Shown: piece by piece, positions 17,288-46,721 of the stretch
How positions within the stretch are numbered: the first letter of the stretch is position 1
Layout of the letters: the number at the start of each line of letters is the position of its first letter
Source of the DNA: Gammaproteobacteria bacterium
GTDB taxonomy: Bacteria; Pseudomonadota; Gammaproteobacteria; HTCC5015
NCBI GenBank assembly: GCA_013817245.1
Contig: JACDDA010000006.1
Span: 1 to 64,000 of the forward strand
Reading direction: 5' to 3'
Length of the DNA: 64,000 nucleotides
Position numbers and translations under genes: made by a program
The notes under the pieces: generated by a model
Databases searched by the model: none
What the model was told of the DNA's origin: nothing
Seen by the model: the letters and a program-made list of their open reading frames with translations, nothing else

Positions 17288-17782
17288 TTAACATTTAGGT
17301 AAATTAGCAGCATCAAACCAAAAACGACAGGTTTTATCCAACATATCATAAAAATCCATCAGGCTAACGGGTTTACGAATGAAGGCATTTGCACCGGCCG
17401 AATAGCAATAATTAACATCTCGATCGTCCACTGACGTAGTTAATACAATCACCGGAATGCATTTTAAACGTTCATCTGTTTTAACCCGACGCAGAAATTC
17501 GCGGCCATCTGTACCAGGCATATTCAGATCAACAAATATCAACGCGGGTAATCGTTCATGCTCTACTGGATTACTCTTGCTGTGCCCTAATGACTCTAAT
17601 GCTTTTTCACAGTCTAGGAAGGGCGATATTTCATTTTTTGCACCCACACGCCGAAATGCACGTACAAAGGCTTCATGATCTTCGACACTATCATCAACCA
17701 CCATTACCGAACGAGCTTCAATTAATGCGCTCACGTTTTTAATTTCCTGCATGCGTGAAATAAAATGTGCTGCCTTTTCCAT
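17288..17782 (-). CDS. Single-domain response regulator, Rcp1-like
   Basis: 164 residues from the ATG at 17782, which has a GGTGGAG ribosome site; an ATG at 17752 is the alternative. It is a receiver domain only: acidic pair D30/D31 (VVDDSVED), phospho-acceptor D85 in FVDLNMPGTDGREFL, T115/T116 and K137 in FIRKP. The loop before D85 and the C-terminus (DMLDKTCRFWFDAANLP) resemble the Rcp1 class that partners phytochrome and related kinases in cyanobacteria and other bacteria. There is no output domain, so it probably acts by protein contact. Its start overlaps the 3' end of the upstream kinase gene by 44 bp, implying translational coupling and a cognate pair. Confidence 0.93.
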   Translation of the reverse strand: MEKAAHFISRMQEIKNVSALIEARSVMVVDDSVEDHEAFVRAFRRVGAKNEISPFLDCEKALESLGHSKSNPVEHERLPALIFVDLNMPGTDGREFLRRVKTDERLKCIPVIVLTTSVDDRDVNYCYSAGANAFIRKPVSLMDFYDMLDKTCRFWFDAANLPKC

Positions 17783-18929
17783 AAGTTGACTCCACCCAAA
17801 TGTAACCACCGTGTTGCTCGATCATGCGTTTCACCATTGCCAGACCGATTCCACTCCCTTGTTGATCCACGTTGCTTGCCGATAAACGTTTGAACATTTC
17901 AAATATGACGGTTAAATGTTCTGACTTGATACCGATACCATTATCTTTAACATAAACAATTTTGCAAGTAGTTCTCACACCTGCCGGAATAATGCCGCTT
18001 TTCTTGATTAACTGCTCGACACTTAACAGCCCAATTTCAATACGTTTATCTAATTTATCATTATATTTAATCGCGTTACCTACCAGATTACGCAACACTT
18101 CAGCTAAATACACGGGATCCGTTTTTAACGTTACGTCTGTGCTGACTTTGCTAATGAGCTGCGTACCTTCTAATTCAATACACAGCAATGCTAACACTTC
18201 ATCCAATACTGCTTTAACATTTACCTCTGCAAGCTCTGTCTTATTAGCAGATATGCGAGAATATTCTAGTAAAGAAGCAATCATCTCGTCTAATTTATGT
18301 GTCAGTTCCACTAATACAGTGAGCTTCTTTAATCCGGGCTCATCTAACTGTGAACCATAATCTTCCAACAAAATCTGCGCATACGTATTCATTCCACGTA
18401 ATGGTCCTCGTAAATCATGCGAAGCTAAGTGCGCAAATCGCTCTAAATCAACGTTCACTCGTTGTAACGCTGCGGTTCTTTCTGAAATACGTTGTTCAAG
18501 CTCGTTATTAAGTTGCTGCAAGCTCGCTTGCGCATTTAATAGTTCGTTATTTTTTTGTTCGAGGGTGGCTTGGCTAGGTATGGCTAACAATTTCGGCATG
18601 AGCGGCCACAATATCAGCGCTGTAACAATCGACACACATGCGGTGATTGCTTTTAACCAACCTTCTAAATAATAATAGCCATGCCAAACATTAAGTACAC
18701 CCACCAGATGCGTAGTACCACACGCAAAAATAAATACGGCGAACAATACAAACAAAAGATTAAAACGCAAATCAGTGCGTTTCTTAACTAAATAAATTAA
18801 AGCAACAGGAATGGTGTAATAAGCGAGAGCAATAAATATATCTGATAAGACATGCAGCCATAACAAGTCGGGGCGCCACAAGAAACAATGACCATGCGGC
18901 ATAAAGTCATGATTGAGAAGATAATCCAT
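17739..18929 (-). CDS. Sensor histidine kinase with ethylene-receptor-type membrane domain
   Basis: 396 residues. Residues about 20-112 form three transmembrane helices that resemble the ethylene-binding domain of plant ETR1 and cyanobacterial SynEtr1: LSDIFIALAYYTIPVALIYLVKK, then FIFACGTTHLVG. The residues known to matter in ETR1 (Asp25, Tyr32, Ile35, Pro36, Ile62, and the copper ligands Cys65 and His69) correspond to D30, Y37, I40, P41, I67, C70 and H74, all present. A coiled coil (about 120-160) leads to a HisKA domain with H171 in FAHLASHDLRGPLRG. The HATPase region has NLVGNAIKYND, VKDNGIGI and GSGIGLAMVKRMIEQHGG. The likely role is membrane sensing of a small hydrophobic ligand through Cu(I), possibly ethylene; that is inference. 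The partner is the overlapping receiver protein. Confidence 0.92.
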   Translation of the reverse strand: MDYLLNHDFMPHGHCFLWRPDLLWLHVLSDIFIALAYYTIPVALIYLVKKRTDLRFNLLFVLFAVFIFACGTTHLVGVLNVWHGYYYLEGWLKAITACVSIVTALILWPLMPKLLAIPSQATLEQKNNELLNAQASLQQLNNELEQRISERTAALQRVNVDLERFAHLASHDLRGPLRGMNTYAQILLEDYGSQLDEPGLKKLTVLVELTHKLDEMIASLLEYSRISANKTELAEVNVKAVLDEVLALLCIELEGTQLISKVSTDVTLKTDPVYLAEVLRNLVGNAIKYNDKLDKRIEIGLLSVEQLIKKSGIIPAGVRTTCKIVYVKDNGIGIKSEHLTVIFEMFKRLSASNVDQQGSGIGLAMVKRMIEQHGGYIWVESTYGKGSTFYFTHAGN

Positions 18930-31362: not shown

Positions 31363-31840
31363 AGAGAAAACTCCCAATTAAAATTTACAATTAAATAAGA
31401 TTCGTTTCGCCACCAAAACTTTAGAGCAACACTCCGAAGTGGTCATAGCAACGCGGCTCATTATAGGGCAGCGCAGCGCATTGGGCAGTGTTTCGCTAGT
31501 AAAATTCCCGTCAATCGCAGATTTAAAGCGGCAAATCGTTGCCTTAAGGGCAAATCTTGACCATTTTTGCATTTTCAGACAGCTCATCGCCCTATCCTGT
31601 AAATGTGCACTATATAAAGTATGGGTGTTAATGCATGACCGATGCGAGTGTTCATCCGACTATCGCGGACCAAATCGTCAACTAATTACTTTTGTTATGC
31701 ATCTAATTCCCTGCAAGCGATTGCTGCTGTCAAAAATTCCATGGCACAGGGCTTGCATTTACTCTTGCATATATTAGGTAAAGACAATACGCATGTGTCG
31801 ACCTGCTGTCTGCACACGTAAGATGATAAGGAGTCGCGTT
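31363..31840. other. Divergent intergenic region between the OmpA-family gene and prkA
   Basis: About 480 bp without a convincing gene; short frames here have poor composition. It must hold the leftward promoter of the OmpA-family gene and the rightward promoter of prkA-yeaH-spoVR. The prkA ribosome site AAGGAG is at 31828-31833. I see no strong structured RNA. Confidence 0.6.
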
Positions 31841-33763
31841 ATGTCCATTTTCAAACAATATCAAGCTCGCTTCGCAGCCGCACGCGAAGACGAATATAGC
31901 ATTCAAGAATATCTCGCATTGTGTAAAGCCGACCACAGTGTTTACGCCAGCCCCGCCGAACGCATGTTAATGGCGATTGGTAATCCCGAATTAGTGGATA
32001 CTCGTCATGACACTCGCTTGAGTCGTATTTTCGCCAATAAAATAATTAAAATTTATCCTGCATTTCGCGAATTTTATGGCATGGAAGAAACCATTGAAAA
32101 TATCGTGTCGCATTTTCGGCATGCTGCGCAAGGCTTAGAAGAAAAGAAACAAATTATTTATTTGTTAGGCCCAGTAGGTGGCGGCAAATCGTCTTTAGCA
32201 GAAACATTAAAACGCTTAATGGAAAAACATCCTATTTATGCCATCAAAGGCTCACCAATTAATGAATCACCCTTAAATTTATTTTCGCCACTAGAAGATG
32301 CTGACTTATTAGAAGAGGACTATGGTATTTCGCGGCGTTACTTAACGGGTTTAATTTCACCATGGGCGATTAAACGTTTACATGAATTTAATGGCGACAT
32401 CACTCAATTCCGCGTCGTTAAATTAAAGCCATCGGTGCTCGAACAAGTGGCGATTGCCAAAACCGAACCCGGCGATGAAAACAATCAAGATATCTCCTCA
32501 TTGGTTGGAAAAATTGATATTCGCAAGCTAGAAGAATTTTCGCAAAATGATCCGGACTCTTATTCTTTTTCTGGCGGTCTTTGCAAAGCTAATCAAGGTT
32601 TACTCGAATTTGTGGAAATGTTCAAAGCACCAATTAAAGTATTGCATCCTTTATTAACCGCAACCCAAGAAGGCAACTACATGGGTACGGAAGGATTATC
32701 CGCAATTCCTTTCGACGGCATTATTTTGGCGCACTCGAATGAATCCGAATGGCAAGCTTTTAAACACAATCGCAATAATGAAGCTTTTTTAGATCGTATT
32801 AGCGTCGTCAAAGTGCCTTATTGCTTGCGTGTGTCAGATGAAATAAAAATTTATGAAAAATTATTACAACACAGCAGCCTATCAAAAGCCGCATGTGCGC
32901 CGGACACCTTAAAAATGATGGCGCAGTTTTCCGTGTTATCGCGGTTAAAAGAAGCAGAAAATTCTAGCATTGAATCAAAAATGCGCGTCTATGATGGCGA
33001 ATCGTTAAAAGATGTTGATCCGAAAGCCAAGTCTTATCAAGAGTATCGTGACTATGCCGGCCCTGATGAAGGCATGTCAGGTTTATCGACCCGATTCGCA
33101 TTTAAAATATTGTCACGCGTATTCAACTACGATCATCAAGAAATTGCCGCCAATCCTGTGCATTTATTACATGTGTTAGAACAACAAATTGAACAAGAAC
33201 AATTTCAAGCGGATATTCAAGAACGTTACATTTCGCATATCAAAGGCATTCTAGCGCCGCATTATGCAGAATTTATCGGCAAAGAAATTCAAACAGCGTA
33301 TCTAGAGTCTTATTCTGAATATGGCCAAAACATTTTTGATCGTTACGTCACTTATGCGGATTATTGGATTCAAGACGAAGAATACCGAGATCAAGATACT
33401 GGCGAAGTATTTGATCGCTCCGCTTTAAATGATGAATTAGAAAAAATCGAAAAGCCCGCCAAAATCAGCAACCCAAAAGATTTTCGCAATGAGATTGTTA
33501 ACTTTGTATTACGTGCACGCTCCCATAACAATGGCAAAAACCCTAACTGGACTAGCTACGAAAAACTTCGCGAAGTAATAGAAAAGAAAATGTTTTCTAA
33601 TACAGAAGATTTACTGCCTGTTATTTCTTTTAATGCCAAGTCAACTACAGATGACAAGCGTAAGCACGAAGATTTTGTTAATCGTATGGTGCAAAAAGGT
33701 TATACCGACAAACAAGTAAGACTGCTTTGTGAATGGTATTTACGCGTCCGCAAAGCCTCTTAA
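31841..33763 (+). CDS. prkA: PrkA serine protein kinase / AAA+ protein
   Basis: 640 residues from the ATG at 31841 with AAGGAG upstream; the open frame continues to 31793 but the conserved start is MSIFKQYQARFAAAREDEYS. The N-terminal AAA+ domain has Walker A GPVGGGKSSL and a kinase-like C-terminal domain follows. The E. coli homologue (YeaG) is induced by nitrogen starvation and acid, and works with YeaH. First gene of the prkA-yeaH-spoVR operon. Confidence 0.95.
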   Translation: MSIFKQYQARFAAAREDEYSIQEYLALCKADHSVYASPAERMLMAIGNPELVDTRHDTRLSRIFANKIIKIYPAFREFYGMEETIENIVSHFRHAAQGLEEKKQIIYLLGPVGGGKSSLAETLKRLMEKHPIYAIKGSPINESPLNLFSPLEDADLLEEDYGISRRYLTGLISPWAIKRLHEFNGDITQFRVVKLKPSVLEQVAIAKTEPGDENNQDISSLVGKIDIRKLEEFSQNDPDSYSFSGGLCKANQGLLEFVEMFKAPIKVLHPLLTATQEGNYMGTEGLSAIPFDGIILAHSNESEWQAFKHNRNNEAFLDRISVVKVPYCLRVSDEIKIYEKLLQHSSLSKAACAPDTLKMMAQFSVLSRLKEAENSSIESKMRVYDGESLKDVDPKAKSYQEYRDYAGPDEGMSGLSTRFAFKILSRVFNYDHQEIAANPVHLLHVLEQQIEQEQFQADIQERYISHIKGILAPHYAEFIGKEIQTAYLESYSEYGQNIFDRYVTYADYWIQDEEYRDQDTGEVFDRSALNDELEKIEKPAKISNPKDFRNEIVNFVLRARSHNNGKNPNWTSYEKLREVIEKKMFSNTEDLLPVISFNAKSTTDDKRKHEDFVNRMVQKGYTDKQVRLLCEWYLRVRKAS

Positions 33764-33787
33764 GCTCTGCTAATCTAGGATAGGCGT

Positions 33788-35059
33788 ATGACTCAGATCA
33801 TAGATCGTCGCCTCAACGGCAAAAATAAAAGTGTCGTTAATCGCCAACGCTTTATCAAACGCTTTCGCGGTCAAATTAAAAAAGCGGTAGATAAAGCTTT
33901 AAATGAACGCAGCATCACCGATATTGAACGTGGTGAAAAAATTGATATCCCTAACAAAGACATTAGCGAACCCATTTTTCATCACGGCAAAGGTGGCCGA
34001 CGTGAAATTGTGCAACCCGGCAATAAAGAATTTATCACCGGCGACACACTCCCTAAACCACAAGGTGGTCAAGGCGAAGGTCAAGGGCAGGGACAAGCCA
34101 GCAATCAAGGTGAAGGCGAAGATTCGTTTGTTTTTGAATTAAGCCGTGATGAATTTTTAGAATTCTTTTTTGAAGATCTCGCCCTGCCCGATTTAATTAA
34201 AACCCAACTCGCACAAATCATGGACTATAAATCGGTGCGCGCGGGCTACACCAAATACGGCGTACCATCCAATATTAATATTAATCGCACTATGCGCGGC
34301 GCGTTAGCACGGCGCATCGCCGTGCGCGGTCCTTACAAACGTCGACTTGAAGAAATTGAAGTGGAGCTAGAAAGTTTGGATGCGTATAATCCAATACACG
34401 CTGCGCAACGCGACAAACTGGAAACGGAAAAAGCCATTTTGCAACGTAAACTCGCACGTATTCCGTTTATTGATGAATTTGATTTGCGTTACAACAATCG
34501 CATTCGTCAACCTAAACCTATTACTCAAGCCGTCATGTTTTGTCTGATGGACGTCTCCGGCTCAATGACGCAAGCACGCAAAGACATGGCCAAACGCTTT
34601 TTTAGTTTGCTCTATCTTTTTTTAAATCGTAATTACGAACACATCGACGTAGTATTTATTCGTCACCACACGACAGCTACCGAAGTCGATGAAAACGAAT
34701 TTTTTTATTCTCGCGAAAGCGGCGGCACGGTTGTATCCAGCGCCTTAGAATTAATGCAAAAAATCATGCAAGAACGTTACTCTACTAGTGAATGGAATAT
34801 TTATGCGGCACAAGCCTCTGATGGCGACAATTGGGACGACGACTCCGGTAATTGCCGTGAAATCTTAGCCAAGAAAATTTTACCCTTTACGCAATATTAC
34901 GCGTATATCGAAATCACCGGACGCGATGGCCAAAAACTTTGGCAAGAATATGAAACCTTAAGCCAGCAGCAAGAACACTTTTGCATGCGTCGCATTGAAG
35001 ACCCTGCTGATATTTATCCAGTATTTCGCGAGTTATTTAAACGTCGCGAGGCCGCTTAA
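33788..35059 (+). CDS. yeaH: YeaH/DUF444 von Willebrand-like protein
   Basis: 423 residues. The N-terminal part is charged (FIKRFRGQIKKAVDKALNER) with a Gly/Gln-rich linker (GGQGEGQGQGQ, about residues 96-112); the C-terminal part is a VWA-type domain with the MIDAS-like CLMDVSGSMTQARK. This is the middle gene of the stress operon, between prkA and spoVR, and the known partner of PrkA/YeaG in E. coli starvation responses. Confidence 0.94.
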   Translation: MTQIIDRRLNGKNKSVVNRQRFIKRFRGQIKKAVDKALNERSITDIERGEKIDIPNKDISEPIFHHGKGGRREIVQPGNKEFITGDTLPKPQGGQGEGQGQGQASNQGEGEDSFVFELSRDEFLEFFFEDLALPDLIKTQLAQIMDYKSVRAGYTKYGVPSNININRTMRGALARRIAVRGPYKRRLEEIEVELESLDAYNPIHAAQRDKLETEKAILQRKLARIPFIDEFDLRYNNRIRQPKPITQAVMFCLMDVSGSMTQARKDMAKRFFSLLYLFLNRNYEHIDVVFIRHHTTATEVDENEFFYSRESGGTVVSSALELMQKIMQERYSTSEWNIYAAQASDGDNWDDDSGNCREILAKKILPFTQYYAYIEITGRDGQKLWQEYETLSQQQEHFCMRRIEDPADIYPVFRELFKRREAA

Positions 35060-35060
35060 C

Positions 35061-36566
35061 ATGTCAACGCCGCGTAATTTAATTTCAACAAGTTCAGAAT
35101 GGACGTTTGAATTAATCGAACGTTACGACCAAGAAATTGGGTCGATTGCCAAAGAATATGGTTTAAGCACTTACCCTAATCAAATAGAAGTCATTAGCGC
35201 CGAACAAATGATGGATGCTTATGCTTCCGTTGGTATGCCCGTCGGTTACAATCACTGGTCGTTTGGCAAAAAATTCTTAAACACCGAACATCACTATAAG
35301 CGCGGCCAAATGGGCTTGGCTTATGAAATCGTCATCAACTCCGATCCATGTATCGTGTACTTGATGGAAGAAAACAGCATGACCATGCAAGCCTTAACGA
35401 TTGCGCATGCTGCGTATGGCCATAACTCTTTTTTTAAAAATAATTATTTATTCCAAACCTGGACAAATGCCGACGCGATTGTCGATTATTTATTATTCGC
35501 CAAAAATTACATCACCGAATGCGAACAACGGCACGGCCAACAAACCGTCGAATTATTTTTAGATTCTTGTCATGCCCTAATGAACTATGGAGTGGATCGT
35601 TACAAACGCCCACCCAAACTTTCAACTCAAAAAGAAGTGCTGCGTCAAAAAGAACGTGAAGCTTATTTACAAACGCAAGTGAATGAACTGTGGCGCACGA
35701 TTCCTAAACTAGACAAAACGGCTGGCGTACAAACAGCTACGCATTTTCCTTCAGAGCCACAAGAAAATATTTTATATTTCATTGAGAAAAATGCGCCGCT
35801 GCTAGAACCATGGCAACGCGAAATCGTGCGCATCACGCGTAAAATCGCCCAATACTTTTATCCACAACGTCAAACCCAAGTTATGAACGAAGGCTGGGCC
35901 TGTTTTTGGCATTACACACTACTCAATAATTTGTACGACGCAGGCAAAGTCAGCGATGGCTTCATGCTCGAATTTTTACAATCACATACCGGTGTAATTG
36001 CTCAACCCGCATTTAATAGTCCCTACTTTAACGGCATCAATCCCTATGCCTTAGGTTACGGCATGATGACCGACATTCGTCGTATCTGTGAAAAACCCGA
36101 AGCCGAAGATTACAAATGGTTTCCGAATATTGCCGGCAAAGATTGGAATAGCACACTCGACTTTGCCATGCGTAACTTCAAAGACGAAAGCTTCATCGCA
36201 CAATATCTATCACCGCGCTTAATTCGCGAATTAAAATTATTCTGCGTCTTAGATGACGACGAACAAGAGGAATACCACATCTCCGCGATTCACAACGACC
36301 AAGGATATGTACACGTTCGTCAAGCCTTAGTAGAACAATACAATCTCGGCAGCCAAGAACCGGATATTCAAGTTTACAACGTCAATGTAAAAGGTGATCG
36401 CTCACTCACCTTACGTCACACCCAACACAACCGCCGACCACTCAGCGACTCCACCGAAGAAGTGTTAAAACACGTGCATCGCTTGTGGGGATTTCCCGTA
36501 CGATTGGAATCTACTAATGATAAAAATGAAATAACGGCGACGTTTAATGTGGGTGAATCTTTATAA
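35061..36566 (+). CDS. SpoVR/YcgB family protein
   Basis: 501 residues from the ATG at 35061, immediately after the yeaH stop. It shows the family's landmark regions: HWSFGKKFLNTEHHYKRG, GLAYEIVINSDPCIVYLMEEN, VMNEGWACFWHYTLLN and INPYALGYGMMTDIRR. Metal-binding residues are likely within the MNEGWACFWHY and AYGHNSFF segments. SpoVR was named for spore cortex formation in Bacillus, but in gammaproteobacteria it is a companion of PrkA and YeaH in starvation or stress; its biochemical role is unknown. Confidence 0.94.
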   Translation: MSTPRNLISTSSEWTFELIERYDQEIGSIAKEYGLSTYPNQIEVISAEQMMDAYASVGMPVGYNHWSFGKKFLNTEHHYKRGQMGLAYEIVINSDPCIVYLMEENSMTMQALTIAHAAYGHNSFFKNNYLFQTWTNADAIVDYLLFAKNYITECEQRHGQQTVELFLDSCHALMNYGVDRYKRPPKLSTQKEVLRQKEREAYLQTQVNELWRTIPKLDKTAGVQTATHFPSEPQENILYFIEKNAPLLEPWQREIVRITRKIAQYFYPQRQTQVMNEGWACFWHYTLLNNLYDAGKVSDGFMLEFLQSHTGVIAQPAFNSPYFNGINPYALGYGMMTDIRRICEKPEAEDYKWFPNIAGKDWNSTLDFAMRNFKDESFIAQYLSPRLIRELKLFCVLDDDEQEEYHISAIHNDQGYVHVRQALVEQYNLGSQEPDIQVYNVNVKGDRSLTLRHTQHNRRPLSDSTEEVLKHVHRLWGFPVRLESTNDKNEITATFNVGESL

Positions 36567-36768: not shown

Positions 36769-36921
36769 ATGGCTCGCTGCGCGTAAATATTACGCGCAGT
36801 TCCCGTCGCGTTTGATCTGTTGTTGCGGGTCGTCACGACGCGACATCCCTGTCGCGGCGTGACTAAAACAAACATCCTGTTTGTTTTTCCCGACAACCGC
36901 TCAAATGCTCGGCGAGCCATG
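36769..36921. repeat. Left branched module of the hairpin array
   Basis: Outer stem CATGGCTCGC (36769-36778) pairs with GCGAGCCATG (36912-36921). Inside are the hairpin 36777-36799, which shares two bases with the outer stem, then a weaker stem (GTTGTTGCGGG near 36820 with CCCGACAAC near 36889) enclosing two hairpins with loop cores ACATCCCTGT (36832-36863) and ACATCCTGT (36865-36887). The result is a branched, cloverleaf-like fold. Confidence 0.75.
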
Positions 36922-37028: not shown

Positions 37029-37122
37029 GTGTTTAAGGGGTAGCGACACATGAACAGGGATGTTCATGTGAGCCGATCGCAACAGGATGTTGCGTTGAGG
37101 CGACGCGTTAACCCTTAAACAC
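37029..37122. repeat. Right branched module of the hairpin array
   Basis: Outer stem GTGTTTAAGGG (37029-37039) pairs perfectly with CCCTTAAACAC (37112-37122). It encloses two hairpins with loop cores ACAGGGATGT (37047-37070, 10-bp stem) and ACAGGATGT (37078-37094, 7-bp stem). The loops are the reverse complements of those in the left module, so the two modules face each other. Confidence 0.8.
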
Positions 37123-41405: not shown

Positions 41406-42368
41406 ATGTCTTTGCATCAACAGTTTCAATCTTTGCAACAATTTGTCGCTTCCGAAATCTTAGGCCAAGAACTATTAGTTAATCGTTTGCTGATCGCGGT
41501 CTTAGCCGATGGCCATTTATTAGTCGAAGGTGCGCCCGGTTTAGCAAAAACACGCGCCATCAAAACCTTAAGCGCCGGCATTGAAGCCGATTTTCACCGT
41601 GTGCAATTTACCCCCGATTTGTTACCCGCCGATTTAACCGGCACCGATATTTACCGCCCGCAAGATGGCAGCTTTCAATTTCAAGCAGGACCTTTATTTC
41701 ATAATTTATTACTCGCGGATGAAATTAATCGTGCACCCGCAAAAGTTCAATCCGCTTTACTCGAAGCCATGGGCGAACGCCAAATCACCGTCGGCGCTAA
41801 AACGTATCCATTACCGAAATTATTTTTAGTTATGGCAACCCAAAATCCATTAGAACAAGAAGGCACGTATCCTTTACCGGAAGCTCAATTAGATCGTTTT
41901 TTATTACATGTGCGCATTGGTTATCCAGAAGCAAGCACCGAACGCGCTATTTTAGCGTTAGCACGCCGCGAAGCTGTCAGCGAAATCAGCAGTGTCATTA
42001 AGCCACGTTTATCACAGGCCAATTTACTCGCCGCACGCAAAGCCATCATGACGGTGCATATGGCAGAAAATGTTGAAGACTATTTATTAGAACTGGTGTT
42101 AGCAACTCGCACTCCCGATAGTTACGGTGCTGATTTAGCAAACTGTTTGCAATATGGCGCAAGTCCACGTGGCACGATTGCTTTAGATCGTTGCGCACGT
42201 GCACATGCGTGGTTAGCTGGTCGTGATTACGTTACACCGGATGACATTCAACAATTAGCACCCGATGTTTTACGACATCGCATCGGGATTAGCTTCGAAG
42301 CAGAAGCGGATGGCAAAACCACGGATACTATTATTACGCAATTGTTACAACGCGTACCTGCGCCTTAA
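41406..42368 (+). CDS. MoxR-family AAA+ ATPase
   Basis: 320 residues. Walker A VEGAPGLAKTRAIKTL, Walker B LLLADEINRAPAKVQSALLEAMGERQ, sensor motif FLVMATQNPLEQEGTYPLPEAQLDRFLL, and a C-terminal lid domain with a helix-rich end (DYVTPDDIQQLAPDVLRHRI). MoxR ATPases act as chaperones for partner proteins with VWA domains, often during metalloenzyme or envelope maturation. First gene of the bat operon. A DUF58 gene follows 34 bp after its stop. Confidence 0.95.
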   Translation: MSLHQQFQSLQQFVASEILGQELLVNRLLIAVLADGHLLVEGAPGLAKTRAIKTLSAGIEADFHRVQFTPDLLPADLTGTDIYRPQDGSFQFQAGPLFHNLLLADEINRAPAKVQSALLEAMGERQITVGAKTYPLPKLFLVMATQNPLEQEGTYPLPEAQLDRFLLHVRIGYPEASTERAILALARREAVSEISSVIKPRLSQANLLAARKAIMTVHMAENVEDYLLELVLATRTPDSYGADLANCLQYGASPRGTIALDRCARAHAWLAGRDYVTPDDIQQLAPDVLRHRIGISFEAEADGKTTDTIITQLLQRVPAP

Positions 42369-42402
42369 TTTTTATTTCGTGACCATTAATATACAAGCTC
42401 CT

Positions 42403-43314
42403 ATGCAAACTTCTATTCAATTAGACACGGATGGCATTACCAGCATTCATGCGACGCAGCTGATTCAAGCGGCTGACCATGTACGTTATTGGCATCGGCA
42501 ACCGTTGCGCGCTAGCGCATCACAAAATGGCGCGTATCTGTCACGCATTAAAGGTCGCGGTATGGAGTTTGAAGAATCGCGGCCGTATCAACCCGGTGAT
42601 GATGTACGCGCACTCGATTGGAAAGTGATGGCGCGCAGTGGCCGGGCGCACACCAAAGTGTTTCGCGAAGAACGCGAGCAACCGATACTGTTGTGGGTAG
42701 ATTTGCGTGACAACATGCACTTTGCAACACGTCGCCGTTTTAAATCAGTTGCCGCTGCCGAATTAGCCGCAATGTTAGCGTGGGCTACGCATTTTCAAGG
42801 TGATCGTTTAGGCGCTTTGCTATTTAATAATCATCAACATATGGAAATAAAACCGCGTGCTGGACGCAGCGCAGTATTACAATTTATAAATCGCTTAGTT
42901 GCATTAGATAATGAACCCATCACCAACATGCACCACTCTAACGGCGATAACATTAGCAATGCACTACGACGCTTGCAAAATGTCGCGCCTACCGGCAGTC
43001 GTATTTATTTACTCAGCGATTTTTATGAATTTAATGCACAACACAAACCTTTATTAGCGCGTTTGTGCGCACATGCGGATGTCACCGCGATTCAAATATT
43101 AGATCCGATCGAACGCGGCGAATTACCCGCCGGTCGTTATCGTGTCACTGACGGTAATCGTCAAGCCGAATTTGTCAGCGCCTCGGAAAAAGTATTAGCG
43201 CCTTATCAAAATATTGCGGCGCTTAGCAAACAATTAGGCTTGAGCTTTTTACAAATCAGCACCGAAGATGATGCTGCGCAAATGTTAAGGCCTTTTTGGC
43301 AAGGTTATCGTTAA
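42403..43314 (+). CDS. DUF58-family protein
   Basis: 303 residues from the ATG at 42403 (MQTSIQLDTDG); the frame is open upstream into moxR but the extra part is not family-like. Signature segments: GRGMEFEESRPYQPGDDVRALDWKVMARS and EERE...LLWVDLRDNM, a VWA-like core. It is the usual companion of MoxR ATPases and has no membrane helices here. Its stop codon overlaps the next start (TAATG). Confidence 0.9.
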   Translation: MQTSIQLDTDGITSIHATQLIQAADHVRYWHRQPLRASASQNGAYLSRIKGRGMEFEESRPYQPGDDVRALDWKVMARSGRAHTKVFREEREQPILLWVDLRDNMHFATRRRFKSVAAAELAAMLAWATHFQGDRLGALLFNNHQHMEIKPRAGRSAVLQFINRLVALDNEPITNMHHSNGDNISNALRRLQNVAPTGSRIYLLSDFYEFNAQHKPLLARLCAHADVTAIQILDPIERGELPAGRYRVTDGNRQAEFVSASEKVLAPYQNIAALSKQLGLSFLQISTEDDAAQMLRPFWQGYR

Positions 43315-43844
43315 TGAATTCAACTTTAGCGATTCGTGATATTCATACACCCACTGATGTTTCGTTTTGGCCGCTCGCACCTGTTTGGTGGGTATTATTA
43401 ATTTTGTGCGCATTATTAATTGCCTATTTTATTTATAAATGGTGGCAACGCCGTCATCGCTTACAAGCTTTGTCGTTAAATGATTTACGCCTGCAATACG
43501 CTGAACATCAAGATGCTACCCGTTTAGTACAACAACTATCCGCCTGGCTGCGTCAGCAATTAATGCTTCGCAATGCTACCGCTGCGCAATTAACTAATAC
43601 AGCTTTTGCAAAAGCCTTAGATGCAGCGAGTGGCGCTGATTTATTTAAGCAAGCGGATATTCTACAACTCGCGTATCAACCCAATATTCGCAAGGAGCAA
43701 GCAGAACACTTTTTATTACTGTGTGAACAATGGCAACAACTTGTAGACTCGACCGCACAGCATAAAAAAACTAAAAACAAAAAAAACCCAAACAAACACT
43801 CGAATAAACACATAAACAAGGATCAACGTCATGTTGACGATTGA
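43314..43844 (+). CDS. DUF4381-family membrane protein
   Basis: 176 residues from the ATG at 43314, one base overlapping the preceding stop. One transmembrane helix (about residues 23-45, APVWWVLLILCALLIAYFIYKWW) follows a short conserved lead (MNSTLAIRDIHTPTDVSFWPLA), then a helical cytoplasmic domain and a Lys/Asn-rich tail (KKTKNKKNPNKHSNKH). DUF4381 proteins are standard members of MoxR/Bat operons; function unknown. The C-terminus overlaps batA by 14 bp. Confidence 0.88.
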   Translation: MNSTLAIRDIHTPTDVSFWPLAPVWWVLLILCALLIAYFIYKWWQRRHRLQALSLNDLRLQYAEHQDATRLVQQLSAWLRQQLMLRNATAAQLTNTAFAKALDAASGADLFKQADILQLAYQPNIRKEQAEHFLLLCEQWQQLVDSTAQHKKTKNKKNPNKHSNKHINKDQRHVDD

Positions 43845-44820
43845 ATGGCCTTGGGTGTTTTGTTTAACCCCATTACCCTTATTAGCGTATTACTTATTAC
43901 CTAGCCAAGCGCGCAATGAGCAAGCGTTAAAAGTTCCCTTTTTTAATGCGCTCACCAACCACCAACTACTTAAAACACCTGCGCGTGCAAATTGGTTATT
44001 AATTCTTGCAACACTGGCGTGGTTGGGTTTGTTAAGTGCTTTAGCACGCCCTATGTGGATTGGTGACGAAATTGAATTGCCGATTACGGGTCGTGATCTT
44101 TTGTTAGCGGTGGATTTATCTAACAGCATGTCTGAAGAAGATTTTGTCTTAGGTAATCGCACCGTGCCACGCTTAGCCGCCGCCAAAGCAGTGGCGGCCG
44201 ATTTTATTAAACGTCGCGAAGGTGATCGCATCGGTTTAATTTTGTTTGGTGAACAAGCTTATTTGCAAGCACCGCTTACTTTTGATCGTCTCACCGTAAC
44301 CCAACTACTCGATGAAGCCGCTTTAGGTTTAGCGGGTCCCAGCACCGCTATTGGTGATGCTATTGGATTAGGCGTAAAACGTTTACGCGCCGCAGATGTA
44401 AAAGATAAAGTGTTAATTTTAATGACCGATGGCGCTAACACGGCCGGCATGTTATCGCCACAAAAAGCCGCTGAACTTGCGCAACAAGCAGGCGTTACTA
44501 TTTATAGTGTGGGCATTGGTTCCGATAGCGCTATGCGTCAATCATTGTTTGGCATGGTATTACAAAAAACCAATACTGATATAGATGAAAAAACTTTGAC
44601 TGACATTGCTAACACTACGGGCGGCCGTTATTTTCGCGCACGCGATACGGCGGAGTTAGAAAAAATTTATGCCATTATCGATCAGTTAGAACCTGCCGCA
44701 CAAAACAAAACCGTGTATCGACCTCAAGATACTTTATTTCGCTGGCCTTTATTATTTGCCCTCACCTGTTGCGCATTAATTATGTTCATACAATTAATCA
44801 GCGGCTGGGTAAAACGATGA
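43831..44820 (+). CDS. batA: BatA-like VWA-domain membrane protein
   Basis: 329 residues with two transmembrane helices near the N-terminus (about 8-25, 55-75), one at the C-terminus (about 305-325), and a periplasmic or cytoplasmic VWA domain between. The MIDAS motif is visible as DLSNSMSEEDF, with TFDRLTVTQLL and LMTDGANTAGM completing the site. Member of the Bat (Bacteroides aerotolerance) group. The stop overlaps the start of the next gene by 4 bp (ATGA). Confidence 0.92.
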   Translation: MLTIEWPWVFCLTPLPLLAYYLLPSQARNEQALKVPFFNALTNHQLLKTPARANWLLILATLAWLGLLSALARPMWIGDEIELPITGRDLLLAVDLSNSMSEEDFVLGNRTVPRLAAAKAVAADFIKRREGDRIGLILFGEQAYLQAPLTFDRLTVTQLLDEAALGLAGPSTAIGDAIGLGVKRLRAADVKDKVLILMTDGANTAGMLSPQKAAELAQQAGVTIYSVGIGSDSAMRQSLFGMVLQKTNTDIDEKTLTDIANTTGGRYFRARDTAELEKIYAIIDQLEPAAQNKTVYRPQDTLFRWPLLFALTCCALIMFIQLISGWVKR

Positions 44821-46721
44821 ATAGCATAATGAACTTAGCGCAATTAAACAGTTTGCATTGGCAACAGCCATGGTGGCTGCTTGCGATACCTATTTTATGG
44901 ATCATCATTTGTTTGTGGTGGTTCAATCATTTACCCAAAAGCTTATGGCGTGAATGGGTGTCGCCCGAATTACAAAAACATGTATTAAAAGGCAACAGTA
45001 GCAATAATCAACGCTGGCCTTTATATATGTTGTTATTTGCAAGCTTCGTAATTTCTGCGGCACTTGCAGGTCCAGCGTGGGTGAAATTACCGCAACCGGT
45101 TTACCAAAATCGCGCAGCCTTGGTCGTCGTATTAGACTTATCACGTTCAATGCTGGCGCAAGACGTAAAACCTTCACGTTTAATTCGCGCAAAAATGAAA
45201 CTCACCGATTTATTGCGTCAACGTCGTGAAGGTCAAACGGCTTTGTTAGTGTATGCCGCCCAAAGTTATGCAGTAACACCGCTGACGACGGATACGGCTA
45301 CCATCTTGGCGCATTTAGAAACTTTAGATCCAAGCATCATGCCGGCACAAGGCAGTCGACCCGATCTTGCGCTTCAACAAGCGATAAACTTATTACACAA
45401 CAGCGGCATACAACAGGGTCAAGTCTTACTTATCACCGATGGCATTGAACACGATATCGATGACAGTATTGCCGCAGTACGTGCAGCGGGACATCGTATG
45501 TCTATACTCGGTATCGGCACTGAAGATGGTGCGCCTATTCCTGATATCGGCGGTGGCTTTTTAAGAGAACGCAATGGCGGTATTATTGTTGCGCGTTTAA
45601 ACAGCGACAATTTAAAATCTCTAGCTCGCGCAGGTGATGGTTCTTATCACGCGCTGACGCTAGACGATAGCGATCTTAATCACGTATTAAGCGATGCGCG
45701 TTTACCTGATGAAAAAAATTCAACAAAAATTGATCGTCAAGTCGATCGCTGGCGTGATGAAGGTCCCTGGTTATTGTGGTTAGTGTTGCCGCTGGCTTTA
45801 TTTGCATTTCGACGTGGCGCTTTAACTTTATGTTTGCTGGCATGTTTGTTATTGCCTACACCTGACAGCTATGCGGCAGAAATGTCTGATTGGAAAAATA
45901 TTTTCCGCAATCAAGATCAACGCGCGCTTAATGCTTATCAAGCACAACAATATCAAGACGCAGCAAAAACGTTTAATGATAAAAATTGGCAAGGCAGCGC
46001 TTATTATCGCGCAGGTGATTACCAACAAGCGCAACAAGCGTGGTCGCAACACGACACTGCCGATAGCTGGTACAACCAAGGCAATGCTTGGGTAAAATTA
46101 GGTGAGCTTGAAAAAGCGCGCAGCGCTTACAAAAAAGCATTGCAACATGACCCCAAACACACAGACGCTAAATATAATTTTGCGCTATTAGATCAAGAAC
46201 AAAACAAATCAGACTCACCTTCTTCTGACTCATCAGATCAGTCACAAGAGAGTGATGATCAAAACCAATCCGGTGATAAAGGTGAATCATCGCAAGATCA
46301 ATCTGACTCATCCAGTAATAAATCTCAAAATCAATCCAACAATCAATCACCAGATCAATCTAAAGATAAAACTGATCAACAAAAATCGGATTCATCAGAC
46401 CAGCAAAACAAAAACTCTAAAGATGCTAATGAAAAGGCCAAACAAGATGCGGCTAATGCGCAAGACATGCCGCGCGCTAATGAACCACCCAAGCCTGAAA
46501 AAGATAATTCTGCCGCTGAACAGAGCCCAGCACAGCAGCAAGAAACTAACAAAAAACCCAACGCTATGGGTAGCAATGATGAATCTAACAGCGAACAAGA
46601 AAAAAATATGGAACAATGGCTGCAACGTGTGCCTGATGATCCAGGCGGTTTGTTACGACGTAAATTTTTATATCAATATAAACAACGTGATGAAGATACA
46701 ACGGAAGCACAGCAATGGTGA
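44817..46721 (+). CDS. batB: BatB-like VWA protein fused to BatC-like TPR and a low-complexity tail
   Basis: 634 residues from the ATG at 44817. N-terminal membrane helices, then a VWA domain with DLSRSMLAQDVKPSRL (MIDAS) and LLITDGIEHDIDDS, a further transmembrane segment (about residues 318-350), a TPR block (about 370-455: NAYQAQQYQDAAKTF, SWYNQGNAWVKLGELEKARSAYKKALQHDPKHTDAKYN), and a 130-residue tail of Ser/Gln/Asp/Asn/Lys (about 460-595) before a conserved end (MEQWLQRVPDDPGGLLRRKFLYQY). In Bacteroidetes BatB and BatC are separate; here they are one polypeptide. The TPR probably recruits partners. Confidence 0.92.
   Translation: MNSIMNLAQLNSLHWQQPWWLLAIPILWIIICLWWFNHLPKSLWREWVSPELQKHVLKGNSSNNQRWPLYMLLFASFVISAALAGPAWVKLPQPVYQNRAALVVVLDLSRSMLAQDVKPSRLIRAKMKLTDLLRQRREGQTALLVYAAQSYAVTPLTTDTATILAHLETLDPSIMPAQGSRPDLALQQAINLLHNSGIQQGQVLLITDGIEHDIDDSIAAVRAAGHRMSILGIGTEDGAPIPDIGGGFLRERNGGIIVARLNSDNLKSLARAGDGSYHALTLDDSDLNHVLSDARLPDEKNSTKIDRQVDRWRDEGPWLLWLVLPLALFAFRRGALTLCLLACLLLPTPDSYAAEMSDWKNIFRNQDQRALNAYQAQQYQDAAKTFNDKNWQGSAYYRAGDYQQAQQAWSQHDTADSWYNQGNAWVKLGELEKARSAYKKALQHDPKHTDAKYNFALLDQEQNKSDSPSSDSSDQSQESDDQNQSGDKGESSQDQSDSSSNKSQNQSNNQSPDQSKDKTDQQKSDSSDQQNKNSKDANEKAKQDAANAQDMPRANEPPKPEKDNSAAEQSPAQQQETNKKPNAMGSNDESNSEQEKNMEQWLQRVPDDPGGLLRRKFLYQYKQRDEDTTEAQQW

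Follow-up and report, generated by a model that had tools for sequence, protein, structure and literature searches.

The ethylene receptor family consists of dimeric kinases in which a Cys and a His in helix 2 hold Cu(I), and it is the copper that binds ethylene. Putative ethylene receptors with diverse outputs have been described in many proteobacteria (PMC7700396, PMC11819568). In Azospirillum brasilense, AzoEtr1, for which ethylene binding is proven, carries an N-terminal ethylene-binding domain (EBD) with seven key residues and a PHGxC motif, followed by a histidine kinase, and the 3´ end of its gene overlaps the gene for a stand-alone receiver, AzoRR-etr1 (PMC11819568). Similarly, SynEtr1 (UirS, Slr1212) of Synechocystis combines an EBD with a histidine kinase that signals to a response regulator (PMC6682694, PMC5812497).

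The 64-kb stretch of gammaproteobacterial DNA analyzed here (hereafter, the window) encodes a kinase of the same general construction, which adds a good example to a family already described and is not without precedent. It differs from each of the described receptors. AzoEtr1 is ~525 aa long and has a PAS domain, whereas the kinase here is 396 aa and has none; the kinase sequences also differ, and the AzoEtr1 receiver, judged by eye from its sequence, is not of the Rcp type found here. Given the PAS domain and the other receiver type, the biology of AzoEtr1 need not transfer. SynEtr1 has a cyanobacteriochrome light-sensing domain that is absent here. Plant ETR1 and ERS1 have in common with this kinase the seven residues, K91 and a kinase-type C-terminus, but both the GAF domain and the fused receiver are missing here, a single N-terminal Cys within PHGxC stands against the plant Cys4/Cys6 pair, and canonical bacterial His-Asp output is to be expected.

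A compact EBD kinase and an overlapping response regulator gene

A single minus-strand gene fills positions 17739 to 18929 (read from 18929 to 17739), while the plus strand of this interval has many stop codons. The first-pass annotation had read an EBD-bearing histidine kinase at these positions without stating the strand, and we confirm this reading. The gene starts with ATG, with a purine-rich GAGGGAG ~12 nt upstream; a scan for promoters farther upstream gave one 10/12 match (18981-18952), in a region that overall did not score above chance. Pfam recognizes only three domains in the 396-aa protein. The EBD (residues 1-119; 18573..18929, minus strand) matches PF25487, ETR1_N, over residues 22-117 (E=1.4e-37, 128.3 bits against a cut-off of 27), and this is the sole membrane family matched, so the membership in the ethylene receptor family proposed earlier stands. 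HisKA follows at residues 162-228 (18246..18446, minus strand), with the phospho-acceptor H171 assigned by motif within ASHDLRGPL, and HATPase_c occupies residues 271-392 (17754..18119, minus strand). The 44-residue linker between the EBD and HisKA leaves no room for the GAF or PAS domains that the earlier annotation had also found to be lacking, and the Pfam scan of the protein detected no PAS, GAF or PHY chromophore-binding light-sensing domain. Among solved structures, the kinase half is most similar to bacteriophytochrome histidine kinases (PDB 9ys3, E=7.2e-42). The description of this protein as a minimal sensor is apt for its compact EBD-HisKA-HATPase layout, but the layout is not unique: nine complete kinases of 370-420 aa are found among the best 80 of at least 563 relatives, and such kinases thus occur in at least nine named loci.

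Overlooked in the first pass was a stand-alone Rcp-type response regulator encoded directly downstream (17288..17782, minus strand; Response_reg E=1.7e-15 by Pfam). Its likeliest start is the ATG at 17782, preceded by GGTGGAG, with the ORF open to a GTG at 17809. From this ATG, the regulator ORF overlaps the 3´ end of the co-oriented kinase gene by 44 nt. In the PDB it is closest to RcpB, a phytochrome response regulator (1k66, E=3.5e-26); other Rcp-type and CheY-like regulators come next. The presence of this regulator indicates that the kinase belongs to a two-component pair, which by sequence looks like a phytochrome-type kinase with its Rcp regulator, the EBD taking the place of the light-sensing part. 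Same-strand receiver genes lie directly 3´ of an EBD gene at ten other loci from several phyla among the matches listed (L049, L073, L083, L084, L086, L089, L099, L110, L111 and L119). As the whole genome has 47 receiver matches, 46 of them above the cut-off, the regulator is assumed to be the cognate partner on the basis of adjacency. One of the ten loci, L073 from a Pseudomonadales MAG, encodes an EBD histidine kinase of 418 aa with the same minimal layout and a receiver gene directly 3´; there, the receiver gene is followed by a REC-GGDEF gene, which is missing from the window. The L073 order of kinase, receiver and REC-GGDEF suggests, rather than shows, an output through c-di-GMP.

The copper site and the PHGxC motif

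In an alignment with the ETR1 N-terminus, D30, Y37, I40, P41, I67, C70 and H74 correspond to ETR1 D25, Y32, I35, P36, I62, C65 and H69 with a constant offset of +5, the 26-residue spacing from P41 to I67 is identical to that from P36 to I62, and K93 aligns with ETR1 K91. All seven residues are therefore present with the numbering and the ETR1-like spacing given in the first-pass annotation. An AlphaFold2 model of the EBD built from 81 sequences (mean pLDDT 90.9) has three long helices, predicted at residues 20-50 (18780..18872, with D30, Y37, I40 and P41), 57-83 (18681..18761, with I67, C70 and H74, the putative Cu(I) site) and 86-115 (18585..18674, with K93), all encoded on the minus strand. 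C70 and H74 had been expected to face each other across helices; instead, both are on the second predicted helix, four residues or one turn apart. In a published model, ETR1 C65 and H69 are likewise both on TM2, buried in the dimer interface (PMC6586836). With both residues on one helix, as in known receptors, an across-helices arrangement cannot serve to discriminate. No solved structure in the PDB resembles the EBD by sequence, and a fold search of the PDB with the EBD model gave nothing significant (best E 0.74), so structure gives no independent confirmation of the family.

Immediately N-terminal of the first helix is a PHGxC motif (P11, H12, G13, H14 and C15; 18885..18899, minus strand). 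The extended pattern P-H-G-x-C-x-x-W precedes helix 1 in nearly all bacterial EBDs examined. The association of this motif with the copper site was counted solely in 61 EBDs, all from Pseudomonadota, collected with the Pfam profile, whose matches begin after the motif; the EBDs from named genomes were left out because they had been fetched using PHGxC. H12 and C15 are both present in 48 of the 61 domains: 47 of the 50 with intact C70 and H74, compared with one of the 11 in which either ligand is lost (Fisher p=3.3e-8, a value that ignores relatedness and the general decay of degenerate copies). When columns with a conservation of at least 85% among the intact domains were ranked by their drop in the others, H12 came third after I67 and C70, and C15 equaled Y37, while G13, D30, K93 and W82 dropped only slightly. 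Several of the 11 domains are interrelated or highly diverged, and a tree-based control, limited to three independent pairs on supported branches, was concordant on nearly every pairing and not significant. Since homologues without C70 or H74 tend to drop I67, Y37, H12 and C15, the conservation of these residues here indicates a working site. The EBDs without copper ligands, most of which also lack H12, C15 or both, are at L013, L014, L040, L041, L043, L144, L145, L147, L148, L151 and L152.

For cyanobacterial receptors, the single N-terminal Cys has been suggested to substitute for the plant disulfide (PMC6682694). This offers an alternative account of C15 and leaves H12 unexplained. A bolder proposal, which we consider possible but doubtful, is that PHGxC is an additional functional element beyond the seven residues, its His and Cys helping to load, hold or redox-gate Cu(I), and that gammaproteobacterial EBDs are wired to c-di-GMP, through EBD-GGDEF fusions or Rcp-type regulators, so that ethylene acts as a cue for biofilm formation or motility in waters distant from plants. 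The co-loss lends itself to a simple mutational test of what may be an unrecognized part of the copper site.

Relatives and distribution of the domain

The EBD gene is the only one in its own genome. An EBD kinase is not exceptional for a gammaproteobacterium: among sampled genomes, 11 of 369 from the class have an EBD above the Pfam cut-off, as do 27 of 398 from the phylum and 20 of 289 from another class in that phylum. The organism's own family gave no match in the three genomes sampled, two of which are only 63% and 73% complete. Exonuclease I, which is also encoded in the window, is conserved in two of these same-family relatives and in one further genome from the class, and no kinase-regulator pair was found in the stretches around it in these three, one of the stretches being shortened by a contig end.

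The best 80 of the at least 563 relatives in named genomes come from Pseudomonadota, Bdellovibrionota, Myxococcota, Acidobacteriota, Verrucomicrobiota, Nitrospinota and Cyanobacteriota. Twenty of these 80 are short EBD-GGDEF proteins of marine or aquatic Gammaproteobacteria, including Alteromonas, Rheinheimera, Halieaceae and Methylophaga (L053, L055-L058, L060-L063, L065, L066, L074, L075, L078, L080, L088, L095, L102, L116 and L123), the GGDEF domain being recognized by Pfam in L053 and by motif in the remainder. Their EBDs are very similar to the one described here, but the output part fused to them is a diguanylate cyclase and not a kinase. The tree check proposed in the first pass placed our EBD inside the bacterial ethylene-binding domains. 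In this tree, the GGDEF group, plus one clearly misplaced long branch, is set off with an SH-aLRT value of 98, and the EBD of 17739..18929 and that of L073 attach beside it, on the other side of the branch, with no exact sister resolved. The kinase described here also suggests that gammaproteobacteria make use of an ethylene-type sensor.

EBD proteins without a recognized output domain also occur in the same class: L010 (198 aa) keeps all key residues, and L005 (133 aa) keeps the PHG, the Cys and the His and has lost D30. Two IMG/VR contigs classed as viral likewise encode EBD proteins that lack a kinase (L127:4743-5552 and L128:4971-5393; ETR1_N E=9e-30 and 5.3e-14), with PHGxC and the Cys/His pair retained and with neighbors that match phage families (replication initiation, an SNF2-type helicase and a metallophosphoesterase). 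A virus-borne ethylene- or copper-binding domain, if true, would be unusual. A literature search, largely of papers open to read without subscription and made with terms other than the motif, returned nothing on EBD-GGDEF proteins or PHGxC, an absence that is weak evidence for their novelty. The PHGxC pattern, the EBD-GGDEF clade and the viral domain-only proteins are more original than the receptor itself.

Ligand, signaling and output

We think it likely that the kinase and regulator form a copper-dependent ethylene-sensing pair, with ligand binding, and ethylene as the ligand, inferred from the family. Each monomer would hold one Cu(I) in its three-helix domain, at C70 and H74 of helix 2 and near D30 and Y37 of helix 1, and ethylene or another small alkene would reach the copper from inside the membrane. 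The dimer could then relay the change through the coiled coil of helix 3 to the kinase part (HisKA/HATPase), which would autophosphorylate at H171 and presumably hand the phosphate on to the Rcp-type regulator encoded next to it. As proposed for SynEtr1 and AzoEtr1, binding of ethylene probably reduces autophosphorylation, and by the same analogy the output probably involves motility, attachment to surfaces or c-di-GMP. The same genome encodes a Cu(I) P-type ATPase in full, which we count in favor of copper and ethylene, and contains 20 GGDEF matches. Such a compact and experimentally convenient kinase, with its own regulator, could be useful for examining how kinase output responds to ethylene binding.

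It is also conceivable, though in our judgment unlikely, that the ETR-family fold and copper site serve another natural signal, such as Cu(I) itself, CO or a different alkene, or else a signal that arises when the copper/thiol site is oxidized. The organism has no recognized ethylene source, and its genome lacks ACC deaminase and hence shows no sign of plant association by that marker; H12 and C15 behave as extra metal- or thiol-related residues; and the domain extends across Bdellovibrionota, Acidobacteriota, Verrucomicrobiota and Cyanobacteriota, many of them without an obvious plant link. However, SynEtr1 and AzoEtr1 have the same residues and both bind ethylene (PMC6682694, PMC11819568), and abiotic ethylene from sunlit organic matter has been suggested (PMC5812497). 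A degenerate, ligand-blind domain that merely anchors the kinase in the membrane does have precedent in the 11 of 61 sampled homologues without C70, H74 or both; as every critical position is kept here, unlike in those 11, and this copy shares 63% identity with the nearest relative from the named genomes (alignment A2), we regard this as very improbable. Finally, chance resemblance of an unrelated three-helix membrane domain to ETR1, in whose favor we found nothing beyond the EBD fold having no match among solved structures, is already refuted by the strength of the match to the curated ETR1_N family, the lack of a match to any other membrane family and the absence of ETR1_N matches from all 14 named control genomes.

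We also noted several features elsewhere in the window. Two TwoAYGGAY RNA motifs, each slightly above the Rfam gathering score, are on opposite strands (36801-36915, minus, and 37041-37119, plus), with a SpoVR gene to one side and a CorA gene to the other. PrkA, DUF444 and SpoVR proteins form a conserved stress-related trio whose role is obscure, and a cluster of these three genes, PrkA being a kinase, is present at 31793-36566 (plus strand). Genes for a MoxR-type AAA protein and VWA/TPR proteins at 41406-46721 (plus strand) make up a typical MoxR-VWA cluster, and the gene content further includes, in keeping with a gammaproteobacterium, exonuclease I, RlmM, TamA/TamB and DksA.
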